From Saccharopolyspora gloriosae (GTDB lineage Bacteria; Actinomycetota; Actinomycetes; Mycobacteriales; Pseudonocardiaceae), in assembly GCF_014203325.1 (NCBI RefSeq), contig NZ_JACHIV010000001.1, positions 3,597,501-3,661,500 of the forward strand: DNA of 64,000 nt, written 5' to 3'. The position numbers and the translations under genes are program-made. Positions 35,846 through 39,478 of the stretch are shown here, piece after piece. Under the pieces are notes generated by a model, which searched no databases, was not told the origin of the DNA, and saw nothing but the letters and a program-made list of their open reading frames with translations. Every line of letters starts with the position of its first letter. The stretch's first letter is position 1.

Positions 35846-36148
35846 GCCCGGCGCCGCGCACATCGCGACCAGGCCGACGGCCTCCTGGTGGAACGCCAGG
35901 ACCGCCACGCAGTCCACCTCGGTCACGACCTCCCGCACCGAATGGACCGTCGACTTCGGACAATTCGACCCGCCGACCGGACAATCCCTTGCGCAGACGC
36001 ATTTCCGCCGAAGTTACTCCATATCGCGGTGTCGGATAATCCCGGTCGGCAACAGTTGACACCGCATGCACCCCTGGACACGATCGTCCCGCTCCGGCTC
36101 CGATTCGGATGCGGCTGTCCGCCGCCCTCACCGACAGGGTTGATCCAC
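35846..36148. other. Intergenic region without a supported gene
   Basis: About 300 bp between the LLM gene and the ThiG-like frame. Codon bias is lost, and the tract around 35990-36060 is less GC-rich than the flanks and may hold a promoter. A short minus-strand reading (around 35860-35960, EVDCVAVLAFHQEAVGLVAM) looks protein-like but cannot be tied to a family. No thiamine-type riboswitch motifs were found ahead of the ThiG-like frame. Confidence 0.5.
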
Positions 36149-36919
36149 TTGACGACGACGTACGATCCGAATCCCGTCCTCGATGAGCCGTGGCTCGAGA
36201 TCGGAGAACACCAGTTCAGATCCCGGCTCATCGTCGGCATCGAGCAGTACGACTCCGTTCCCGTCGTCAGGGACGTGCTGACCGCGACCGGTGCCGATGT
36301 CTTCATCACCACCGTGGACCCGGACAATCGCCGTTCCAGCCTGCTCCTGTCGGATCTCGACGACGCGCTCCCCCTGGAGAACTTCAGCTGGATCGGCACC
36401 ACCTCGTTCTCCCGCTCGAAGGACAGCGCGGTCAAGACCGCGGGAATTCTGCGGGATTCACTAGGAATCGATGTGCTGAAGCCGGACGTCCGGGGCGAGG
36501 ACAACATGCCCGACAACCGGATGACGATCTAAGCGGCTCACGAACTCCGCCCCCAGGGAGTGGAACTCTTGCCGTTCATCCTGCCGGAGCTCGAAGCGGC
36601 GCGGGAACTTCAGGATCTCGGGTGTGCCGCGCTGCGCGTGATGGCCTCGCCGGTGGCCTCCGGCCGAGGCATCGTCGACCCGACGCGAATCCGGGAGGTC
36701 ATCGAGCACTCGGACATCCCGGTGATCGTCGAGGGCGGACTGGGGAGCGCTAAGCACGTCGCACTCGCGATGGAGCTCGGAGCCGCGGCGACGCTGATCA
36801 ACACCGCGTTGGTGCGAGCAGGTGAGCCGCTCAAGATGGCCAGGGCCATGCGGTACGCGGCGATCGCTGGACGCCTGGCATTCGAATCCGGCCCGATGGC
36901 GGAGGCCCCGGCCGCCTGA
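36149..36919 (+). pseudogene. ThiG-family (thiazole synthase-like) gene interrupted by an in-frame TAA
   Basis: The first part (TTG at 36149 to TAA at 36530-36532, 127 residues) matches the ThiG N-terminal half: EIGEHQFRSRLIVGIEQYDS and the putative Schiff-base lysine in IDVLKPDVRG. The same frame continues after the stop as AAHELRPQGVELLPFI, then CAALRVMASPVASGRGI, IPVIVEGGLGSAKHVALAMELGAAATLINTAL and ARAMRYAAIAGRLAF, the ThiG C-terminal half. Restoring one sense codon, for example CAA, would give a full-length 256-residue protein. ThiG paralogues in actinobacterial clusters include the thiosugar synthase BexX. It may be a recent null mutation, or be made as two pieces; the former is likelier. 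The TTG start is uncertain. Confidence 0.75.
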
Positions 36920-37670: not shown

Positions 37671-38405
37671 ATGATCGTCCCGGGGGACCACAACGACATT
37701 CCGCCTTCTCGACGGGCGCCCTTCATCGTCGAACCGTTCACGGACGCATGCCGTGCGATCTGGGAGCAGCGGCAGCACGCGCTGTTCGGGGTCAGCCCCG
37801 GGAACAGCTACTTCCAGGTCGCACTGCTGACCGACCTGCTGGGCTGGCTCTGCGAGGAGTTCGCCCGGGGCGATGTCGTCGTTCCGGACTCCGCGCTGGA
37901 ACACACCTACCGCGCCCTCGGCTACTCCCCGCAGCGCGCGGCGACGAAGGCGCGGGGCGAGACCAATGTGCTGCGCAACAGAGTTCGCAGGGCCTGGGAG
38001 AACTGCGGCGGGCCGAGAGAGGGCGACGGCCTGCACCGGATGTCCGAGCTGGCTTCCCACGGGACCTACCGGCGAACGCTCGCGGAGTGTGAGGAAGCAC
38101 TGGCGGCCGACGAGAACCTTCGGGAAACGTGCGCGCTGGCGAGCAGGAAGGTGCTCACCGCACGGGGATTCGACGGGCCGCTGACCGAGGACCAGATCAA
38201 CCGGGCCATGCGGTACCTGATCGGCGAACTCCCGTTCTTCCTGGCTTCGGCCGAGATGTTCAACGTCACGTCCTCGCTGAACTTCTACCATCAACGACTT
38301 CTGCTGGCGGACCTCATCTTCTCCGGGAAGGCAGCGCTCAGCCCCTCATCCCGCCAGGCGTACGCGGTCATTCGCCGCGCTTCACATTTCCCGGGAAAGG
38401 AGTGA
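37671..38405 (+). CDS. tRNA-dependent cyclodipeptide synthase (CDPS), NYH subfamily
   Basis: 244 residues, normal for CDPSs, which take two aminoacyl-tRNAs and release a cyclic dipeptide. HALFGVSPGNSYF (36-48) carries the nucleophile Ser42 that accepts the first aminoacyl group, equal to AlbC Ser37. RYLIGELPFF gives Tyr182 and Glu186, and SLNFYHQ gives Tyr206-His207; the spacings 182-186-206 equal those of AlbC Tyr178-Glu182-Tyr202. Asn45, Tyr206 and His207 place it in the NYH group. Basic residues around 94-108 fit tRNA contact. The product amino acids cannot be read by eye. It starts the unit CDPS, small ORF, prenyltransferase. Confidence 0.95.
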   Translation: MIVPGDHNDIPPSRRAPFIVEPFTDACRAIWEQRQHALFGVSPGNSYFQVALLTDLLGWLCEEFARGDVVVPDSALEHTYRALGYSPQRAATKARGETNVLRNRVRRAWENCGGPREGDGLHRMSELASHGTYRRTLAECEEALAADENLRETCALASRKVLTARGFDGPLTEDQINRAMRYLIGELPFFLASAEMFNVTSSLNFYHQRLLLADLIFSGKAALSPSSRQAYAVIRRASHFPGKE

Positions 38406-38411
38406 ACAAGC

Positions 38412-38540
38412 ATGCCGGACAATTACGACCACTGCGCACGGAAACCGGCCGACGTGGAAACACAATGCGAAACCTGGATCTTCAACGCGGGTGATGCCGA
38501 CCTCGCGGAGGACGCCGGCGGAATCAGGCGAGCACCATGA
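38412..38540 (+). CDS. 42-residue small ORF between CDPS and prenyltransferase genes
   Basis: ATG at 38412 follows the CDPS stop by 6 bp and has AAAGGAG (38396-38402) at a usable distance; the stop TGA overlaps the prenyltransferase ATG by 4 bp. Two independent coupling signals make it likely to be translated. The peptide starts MPDNYDHCARKPADVET and is rich in Asp/Glu with two Cys (residues 8 and 19), no signal peptide and no membrane segment. I recognise no family. It may be a small partner protein, or only a leader that couples translation of the enzyme behind it. Confidence 0.6.
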   Translation: MPDNYDHCARKPADVETQCETWIFNAGDADLAEDAGGIRRAP

Positions 38541-39478
38541 GGAAGTACGAGCTGGCCGCCGCAGGGATCACCGACCCGCTCCTGGTCGAGGCTTATGCGG
38601 CCTGCAGCGCCCGAGTGCGCAGGCGCAACCCGGCCGCCTACCCGACCACCCGGTGCCTGCTGCCCGTGGCGAAACGGCCCTACTACGACGCGGCTCTCGC
38701 CTTCTGCCGCCACGCGGACGACCTGATCGACGCTCCGGAGCGGACTCCGGAGGAACGTGCCCAGCGATTCGACCGCTTCCAGGAGACCTTGCTCGCGGCC
38801 CCGCGGCACCGGACGAGAAGCACCACCACGGACGGTCGCATCGCGGCCGCGTTCACCCACTTCGCGTCGACCTGGGGCATCACGACCGATTCCCTCGGGC
38901 ACTTCCTGGAAGTGCTCCGCAGCGACCTGCACGTGACGTCCTACCAGGCCTACCGCGACCTCGAGCACTACATGCGGTGGGTCAGCGGGGAACCGGCTGC
39001 TTGGATCAACCTCCTGCTCGAACCGTCCACGGCCGAAGCCGAGCACCGCGCGATCTCGCTCAGCCACGCCCTGTACCTGCTGCACTTCCTCGACGACATC
39101 GGCGAGGACCTGGAACTCGGGCGCGTCTACCTGCCGGAAGACGATCTGGCGCAGTGCGGCTTGACCCGCGAAAGCCTGCGGACCGCCGTGTCCGGCGGGG
39201 TCACGACGGGTGCGTTGCGGCTGCTCGCCCGCTGCCAGGCGGACCGCGTCGACCGGCTGCTGACCGAGTCCGAAGACTGGTGGCGACTGGTGCACCCTTC
39301 ATCGCGCTGGTTCGTCCAGCGATACCACCGCCTCGCACGCCAGTCGTTGCGCACGATCCTCCGGCGCGACTACGAGGTCCTGCTCCCCGTGCCCCGGACG
39401 CAGGCCATGTGGAACCGCACGAAAGCCATGGGCGGCACCGGACTCACCTACGCCCGCGCCCTCGCCACCAGACCTTGA
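38537..39478 (+). CDS. Phytoene/squalene-synthase-like prenyltransferase (cyclodipeptide prenyltransferase candidate)
   Basis: 313 residues of the trans-isoprenoid head-to-head synthase family. The first Asp-rich motif HADDLIDAP (59-67) and the second LDDIGEDLELGRVYLPEDDL (185-204) bind diphosphate through Mg2+; RVYLP is a family hallmark. In drimentine biosynthesis a phytoene-synthase-like enzyme (DmtC1) attaches a farnesyl unit to a CDPS-made diketopiperazine. Tight coupling to the CDPS here makes the same role more likely than carotenoid or hopanoid synthesis. No other carotenoid or hopanoid gene and no membrane terpene cyclase are nearby. Confidence 0.85.
   Translation: MRKYELAAAGITDPLLVEAYAACSARVRRRNPAAYPTTRCLLPVAKRPYYDAALAFCRHADDLIDAPERTPEERAQRFDRFQETLLAAPRHRTRSTTTDGRIAAAFTHFASTWGITTDSLGHFLEVLRSDLHVTSYQAYRDLEHYMRWVSGEPAAWINLLLEPSTAEAEHRAISLSHALYLLHFLDDIGEDLELGRVYLPEDDLAQCGLTRESLRTAVSGGVTTGALRLLARCQADRVDRLLTESEDWWRLVHPSSRWFVQRYHRLARQSLRTILRRDYEVLLPVPRTQAMWNRTKAMGGTGLTYARALATRP

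Follow-up and report, generated by a model that had tools for sequence, protein, structure and literature searches.

A compact cyclodipeptide synthase-prenyltransferase locus in Saccharopolyspora gloriosae with a probable methyltransferase scar between its two enzyme genes

What is produced by a locus in which a 42-codon open reading frame (ORF) separates the genes of a cyclodipeptide synthase (CDPS) and a phytoene-synthase-like prenyltransferase, and what the small ORF represents, are the questions raised by a window of Saccharopolyspora gloriosae DNA (the whole stretch analyzed, 64,000 nucleotides, positions 3,597,501 to 3,661,500 of contig NZ_JACHIV010000001.1). The genome is a single contig of 6.83 Mb, with one CDPS, four SQS_PSY proteins and six polyprenyl synthase matches. 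An earlier interpretation based on the letters alone (the sequence-only reading) proposed that a prenylated, perhaps linear farnesylated, diketopiperazine is made here along the lines of the drimentines, in a layout set apart by the lack of a terpene cyclase and by the extra small gene. We read the locus as a compact operon whose product would be a tryptophan diketopiperazine carrying a prenyl group, and in which the small ORF is the scar of a methyltransferase gene, and give this reading a probability of roughly 0.7. The order of the three ORFs, all in tandem on the plus strand, the 6-bp gap between the CDPS gene and the small ORF, and the 4-bp ATGA overlap between the latter and the prenyltransferase gene agree with what had been described before.

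The assignment of the two enzymes to their families goes far beyond chance. The first protein matches Pfam CDPS (E = 3.4e-71, 239.9 bits, cut-off 27) and TIGR04539 (246.7 bits, cut-off 45), and its NYH catalytic set is complete (Ser37, Asn40, Tyr178, Glu182, Tyr202, and His203 in AlbC numbering). Ser42, Tyr182, Glu186, Tyr206, and His207 align with S37, Y178, E182, Y202, and H203 of AlbC; the spacing, previously said to be identical, is so in the Y-E-Y-H part, but is one residue shorter from Ser42 to Tyr182 (140 vs. 141). The third protein matches Pfam SQS_PSY (E = 1.9e-36) and carries both Asp-rich motifs, D61xxxD65 and D187xxxD191, which bears out its identification as a phytoene-synthase-like isoprenoid synthase. 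Its NCBIfam scores are all far under the cut-offs (101.4 vs. 250.45 bits for HpnC, 85.3 vs. 278.6 bits for HpnD, and 39.5–68.8 bits vs. 480–550 for three CrtB models).

In a prenyltransferase tree of 35 rows, where look-alike loci were used and the sequences of DmtC1, NozPT, SazB, GczB, and GczC are absent, the window prenyltransferase falls inside a nine-row diketopiperazine prenyltransferase clade (support 100/97). Five of the other eight rows adjoin a CDPS gene, which is either the immediate neighbor (L100, L111, L113, and L114) or separated by a methyltransferase gene (L099); L096 adjoins a methyltransferase gene, and the examined flanks of L112 and L055 contain neither. A sub-clade (100/99) groups the window enzyme with a prenyltransferase encoded on the Streptomyces cattleya megaplasmid (L096, 51% identity) and with that of genome G055 (L100, 48%), which comes from another genus and adjoins a CDPS gene. 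The prenyltransferases of L113 and L114 form a separate pair. These two loci are cyclase-linked according to their match with the terpene cyclase family PF25129, and were called dmt-like on the basis of their layout and not by comparison with published sequences; L114 was taken as dmt1-like in view of its CDPS of 233 aa with Gln at AlbC position 203 and its prenyltransferase of 311 aa, as printed for DmtB1 and DmtC1. Uniting the window enzyme with the L113/L114 pair gives a tree 19.5 log units lower, which is not formally rejected (p = 0.08), whereas uniting it with HpnC/HpnD is rejected by the approximately unbiased test (p = 0.0004). Nor does it group with the CrtB-like protein of its own genome, so that the grouping with HpnC/HpnD or carotenoid enzymes, which had been put forward as a test of the sequence-only reading, did not occur. 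Trp156 is found in all 17 rows of the aromatic-prenyltransferase clade and in none of the 18 remaining rows, and the structural model (mean predicted local distance difference test score 86, from an eight-row alignment) has as its nearest solved folds those of LvqB4 and CqsB4, followed by HpnC and CrtM-type enzymes. By its sequence, the third protein belongs to the diketopiperazine prenyltransferase clade, and not with HpnC, HpnD, or CrtB. Its sub-clade, the third, in which no characterized member was identified, offers a direct test bed for the determinants of prenyl-donor length, for which we know of no sequence determinant.

The P1 residues of the window CDPS (AlbC numbering) are L33, G35, V65, P67, M119, F185, F186, and N200. 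The CDPS of L099, predicted to be a producer of cyclo(L-Trp-L-Trp) (cWW; PMC11804793), differs from it only at positions 33 and 200, six of the eight residues being equal, whereas the CDPSs of L113 and L114 have Leu186/Ala200. According to PMC6173783, cWW-type CDPSs are marked by Phe186, a hydrophilic residue at position 200, and Pro207; the first two are present here as Phe186 and Asn200. The P1 pocket resembles that of reported cWW enzymes and not that of the drimentine-like loci. The identity to prenyltransferase-linked CDPSs amounts to 55% (G055), 55% (G1027), 52% (G512, the genome carrying L099), and 41% (both cyclase-linked loci). Higher values were obtained with ten other CDPSs (L002–L006, L008, L104, and L010–L012; 60–71%), and five more reach 54–56% (L014–L018). 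An AMP-binding-ligase homolog occurs in the examined flank of all these 15 close relatives (Pfam-confirmed in L002 only), directly upstream of the CDPS in 7/7 of the loci with called genes, and no prenyltransferase of the window kind was detected in the examined flanks of the 15.

The small ORF matches no Pfam or NCBIfam family. At the place where intact methyltransferases of the indole C3-methyltransferase kind have their terminal DN(Y/W)(x11)(D/E)TW, it has DNYDHCARKPADVETQCETWIF, and residues 5–24 of the small ORF align with columns 22–41 of a C-terminal methyltransferase profile. With the full methyltransferase profile, the small ORF was the best of the 1040 ORFs in the window (449 with a reported score), and only 2 of 5000 shuffled versions were equally good. 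With the tail profile, 5 of 20,000 shuffles scored equally well and 2 of 10,138 genomic ORF ends scored better; when the tails of Protein Data Bank (PDB) entries were added, one shuffle in 20,000 and 2 of 10,137 other ORF ends were as good or better. Of 3000 random intervals of equal length, 1 matched the methyltransferase tail equally well. The same interval in a sibling locus (G048) reads NWVKDTLGPESSQDTW and is also tail-like, with 24 and 22 random intervals out of 3000 scoring equally well. The case for a scar is carried by these profile tests and not by pairwise comparison. Since only a tail-like stretch is kept, the S-adenosylmethionine-binding Rossmann part and the catalytic residues Tyr126 and His220 being absent, the small ORF would be a relic and not a member of the methyltransferase family.

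Its position points the same way. In L099 a methyltransferase gene stands between those of the CDPS and the prenyltransferase, and its product is identical to SgMT (PDB 9GDJ) over the 251 aa compared; the SgMT and StspM1 clusters are described as containing these three genes (PMC11804793), and in S. cattleya (L096) a methyltransferase gene directly precedes that of the prenyltransferase. The small ORF stands in this place, preceded by a strong ribosome-binding site (AAAGGAG). Because of the tail similarity together with the place occupied by the methyltransferase in these intact loci, we regard the small ORF as quite probably a scar left by the C-terminal part of an indole C3-methyltransferase of the SgMT/NozMT type, once encoded between the CDPS and the prenyltransferase, and the junction in the window seems to descend from a CDPS-methyltransferase-prenyltransferase order. 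The rest of the genome yielded no close SgMT homolog (best match, E = 6.6e-8 across about 100 residues), and neither a methyltransferase nor a racemase was detected among the ten neighboring window proteins tested. That the scar has been kept by selection as a translational coupler setting the CDPS:prenyltransferase ratio, its ribosome-binding site and ATGA being retained while the gene was trimmed to 42 codons, is decidedly doubtful; in that case, a single deletion would have made a coupler of a tailoring enzyme and switched the product from a methylated and prenylated diketopiperazine to a purely prenylated one. The possibility of a conserved small gene was dismissed, a phmmer search of 136 loci with E values up to 10 having matched only its own copy. 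No description of the scar or the locus was found in the titles and abstract openings searched, a set lying outside the primary streptoazine and griseocazine papers.

Several observations weigh against the reading as a compact operon with a scar. The tail match extends over 20 residues and its scores are low (4.7 bits with the full profile, 9.1–9.2 with the tail profiles), the two ORF ends that outscore the small ORF are unrelated, and the spacing from DNY to ETW is three residues longer than in the intact enzymes. In pairwise comparisons with two methyltransferases, shuffled sequences were equally good in 136 and 209 of 2000 cases, which is not significant, and in the corresponding interval of G055 no signal appears in frame (2658 out of 3000 random intervals do equally well). 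The 4-bp overlap of the prenyltransferase gene with the preceding gene, present in 5/7 other prenyltransferase loci with called genes, is unspecific, as it occurs behind a methyltransferase (L096, L099) and behind a CDPS (L111, L113, L114). The nearest CDPSs (60–71%) are linked to ligases and not to prenyltransferases, so that they give no basis for assigning a product. Rv2275, presumably a tyrosine enzyme, is also to be considered here. It likewise has Asn200 and Phe186 (PDB), and the P2 residue 207 of the window CDPS is Leu where cWW enzymes have Pro (PMC6173783).

For the small ORF, a chance frame, or a leader or coupling peptide of other than methyltransferase ancestry, would fit the lack of any family match or homolog besides its own copy, the non-significant pairwise shuffles, the commonness of the overlap, and the lower GC content at third codon positions (GC3; 0.67, vs. 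0.85 in the CDPS and 0.89 in the prenyltransferase gene); its rank among the window ORFs, the interval test, the alignment at the extreme methyltransferase C-terminus, and a position in the operon equivalent to that of the methyltransferase gene make this explanation somewhat unlikely. If the scar is accepted, the operon might have become useless with the loss of the methyltransferase and be heading for elimination, as the scar itself, an upstream ThiG-like gene broken by an in-frame stop, the fragmented CDPS and prenyltransferase of G048, and the absence of a close copy in 5/5 congeners could suggest, but both enzymes are full length with intact catalytic residues and the high GC3 values just given, and the junctions are tight, all of which renders decay unlikely.

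The same holds for a drimentine-type pathway, in which the prenyltransferase, like DmtC1, would farnesylate cyclo(Trp-Xaa), the cyclase would have been lost, and the small ORF would be a new accessory gene. The window prenyltransferase shares the wider diketopiperazine clade with L113/L114, their union is not rejected, and linear farnesyl products were obtained when dmtB-dmtC was expressed without dmtA (PMC6173783). Opposed to this are the P1 pocket, in which Leu186/Ala200 are lacking, the low CDPS identity to the cyclase-linked loci, the different prenyltransferase sub-clade, which contains a methyltransferase-linked enzyme instead, and the genome itself, in which no Pyr4-type terpene cyclase (PF25129) was detected by a search that was positive in 3/8 genomes; the missing cyclase of the sequence-only reading is thus upheld for the whole genome, and the choice of drimentine biosynthesis as a model is not. 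Nor is the third gene likely to be a carotenoid or hopanoid synthase placed beside a CDPS by accident, although the SQS_PSY fold and the sub-threshold HpnC, HpnD, and CrtB matches could be cited in its favor. Those matches lie far below the cut-offs, the HpnC/HpnD grouping is rejected, the gene overlaps the operon and belongs to a CDPS-associated clade, and the genome has three further SQS_PSY proteins, two adjacent in HpnC-HpnD-like order and one CrtB-like (names given on gene order and tree, not from a curated model); an accidental neighbor is highly improbable.

For a compact operon with a methyltransferase scar, we infer the following pathway, in which the substrate, the prenylation site, and the coupling, like the ancestry of the scar, are predictions. 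The CDPS would join two amino acids delivered by tRNAs, with Trp predicted for one, and the best guess is cyclo(L-Trp-L-Trp); since residue 207 is Leu, the second amino acid is left open as cyclo(L-Trp-L-Xaa). The ribosome-binding site of the scar and the ATGA overlap would, judging by the junctions, probably still hand ribosomes on to the prenyltransferase. The latter may ionize a prenyl diphosphate held via Mg2+ on its two Asp-rich motifs and alkylate indole C3, followed by ring closure to a pyrroloindoline, by analogy with DmtC1, which uses farnesyl diphosphate (PMC6173783), and NozPT, an enzyme of the same kind using dimethylallyl diphosphate (DMAPP; PMC10156859), both described as performing C3 prenylation and this closure. 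As the methyltransferase is gone, the product would be prenylated and not methylated, most likely a C3-prenylated tryptophan diketopiperazine. Between a C5 and a C15 donor we lean slightly to DMAPP. The prenylated diketopiperazine of the sequence-only reading is therefore supported by the CDPS and the diketopiperazine prenyltransferase, and its farnesyl group is one option, NozPT using DMAPP (PMC10156859).

Among the closest known systems, the cluster of SgMT (Streptomyces griseoviridis) and that of StspM1, which holds a second methyltransferase and is lansai B-like, share with the locus the CDPS-(methyltransferase)-prenyltransferase order (L099), the CDPS (52%), and most of the P1 pocket, but in the window the methyltransferase is reduced to the scar, and the prenyltransferase is 34% identical to that of L099 and belongs to another sub-clade. 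The nocardioazine noz2 genes (NozPT, NozMT, NozR) and the S. cattleya pair resemble it in that a phytoene-synthase-like prenyltransferase, in S. cattleya the closest to the window enzyme by identity, stands beside an indole-methyltransferase homolog; there, however, the CDPS lies elsewhere and the methyltransferase is intact, NozPT being likened by description and not by sequence, and no racemase is among the ten window neighbors tested. The drimentine genes dmt1-3 (DmtA cyclase, DmtB CDPS, DmtC prenyltransferase) have a similarly tight coupling of CDPS and phytoene-synthase-like prenyltransferase, and differ in the cyclase, the P1 pocket, and the sub-clade as seen in L113/L114. In the griseocazine and streptoazine systems, phytoene-synthase-like enzymes prenylate CDPS products, and the parts of PMC9231227 and PMC10156859 consulted mention no terpene cyclase; griseocazine involves two prenyltransferase genes, whereas the streptoazine SazB is a prenyltransferase joined to an unrelated methyltransferase, and both lie outside the tree. 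The carbazole prenyltransferases LvqB4 and CqsB4 share the fold and the Trp156-type motif, but form a separate clade, and their acceptor is carbazole (PDB title).

The recognition of a CDPS-prenyltransferase locus was right, while there is little support for the drimentine analogy and for the claimed novelty of the layout: such loci in G1027 and G055 likewise belong to genomes where no Pyr4-type cyclase was found, and the SgMT/StspM1 clusters consist of CDPS, methyltransferase, and prenyltransferase (PMC11804793). The extra small gene does exist as an ORF, and looks like a methyltransferase relic instead of the mark of a separate layout; this probable scar is the sole unusual feature of the locus. 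The locus would enlarge a small group of pathways by a CDPS-prenyltransferase pair that has no cyclase and from which the methyltransferase was deleted, and suggests a route by which a CDPS-methyltransferase-prenyltransferase pathway can be shortened. The features are listed in Table 1; a promoter and terminator scan of the locus gave no signal exceeding chance.

Table 1. Coordinates of the features of the locus within the window and the basis of each assignment.
Feature	Position	Strand	Basis
NYH-type cyclodipeptide synthase of 244 aa with a cWW-like P1 pocket	37671..38405	+	Pfam, TIGR04539, AlbC alignment, tree
AAAGGAG, Shine-Dalgarno-like, within the CDPS 3' end, 9 bases 5' of the small-ORF ATG	38396..38402	+	Sequence read
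Small ORF, 42 aa, probable SgMT/NozMT-type indole C3-methyltransferase scar	38412..38540	+	Profile tests, operon position
Small-ORF segment aligned to the last ~20 residues of the methyltransferase family	38424..38483	+	C-terminal profile
ATGA, small-ORF stop overlapping the prenyltransferase start; putative coupling	38537..38540	+	Sequence, comparison of prenyltransferase loci
Phytoene-synthase-like diketopiperazine prenyltransferase, 313 aa; D61xxxD65, D187xxxD191, W156	38537..39478	+	SQS_PSY, tree, motifs, model

CDPS matches are present in 88/390 genomes of the family to which S. gloriosae belongs. Among the best 30 CDPS loci, its own included, a prenyltransferase of the window kind occurs within 1.5 kb only in the window, in G055, and in G048, where the locus is broken. 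Close copies of the prenyltransferase and of the CDPS are absent from all five congeners (best prenyltransferase matches, E = 8.5e-28 to 4.2e-26; CDPS matches in 2/5, with 33–35% identity). The family of S. cattleya, with 394 genomes searched, gave six prenyltransferase matches in five genomes (E up to 1e-38): four adjoin a CDPS (L067, L107, L108, L109), one lies behind a methyltransferase (L106), and one has neither (L110). A review gives 26 as the number of prenyltransferase-associated CDPS clusters from one survey (PMC9231227).

In the CDPS tree, the window enzyme and the 15 ligase-linked CDPSs form one clade. Topology tests allow these 15 to form a clade without it (p = 0.535), weakly reject its union with L099, L100, and L111 (p = 0.035), and do not reject its union with G055 (p = 0.34). 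A hybrid operon, with its CDPS derived from ligase-linked clusters and its prenyltransferase from methyltransferase-prenyltransferase pairs, was considered and left unproven by these values. A class I methyltransferase homolog also flanks the CDPS in 13/15 of the ligase-linked loci, which come from several actinomycete families. The ligase-CDPS pairing, at which no literature search was aimed, is not known to have been described.

The S. cattleya megaplasmid carries two prenyltransferases of the diketopiperazine clade (L096, 9189-11032; L112, 8788-9816). No CDPS occurs within 10 kb on either side of L096, and three CDPSs lie on the other contig; a split pathway like that of nocardioazine is possible. 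In G512, the genome of the SgMT-type locus, a Pyr4-type cyclase match is present on a separate contig (C24, 1387-1869, minus strand). In G048 (L101/L023), the CDPS and prenyltransferase genes are each broken over several frames, while both are whole in G055, which belongs to the same genus. On contig 5 of G055 (L100), two 100-aa ORFs of one cluster are located at the two contig ends (20-322 and 12232-12534) and resemble transposase pieces by eye. Upstream of the locus in the window, a ThiG-like gene (36140-36919, plus strand) is split by one in-frame TGA near 36530; the two parts share a reading frame, and each matches Pfam ThiG.

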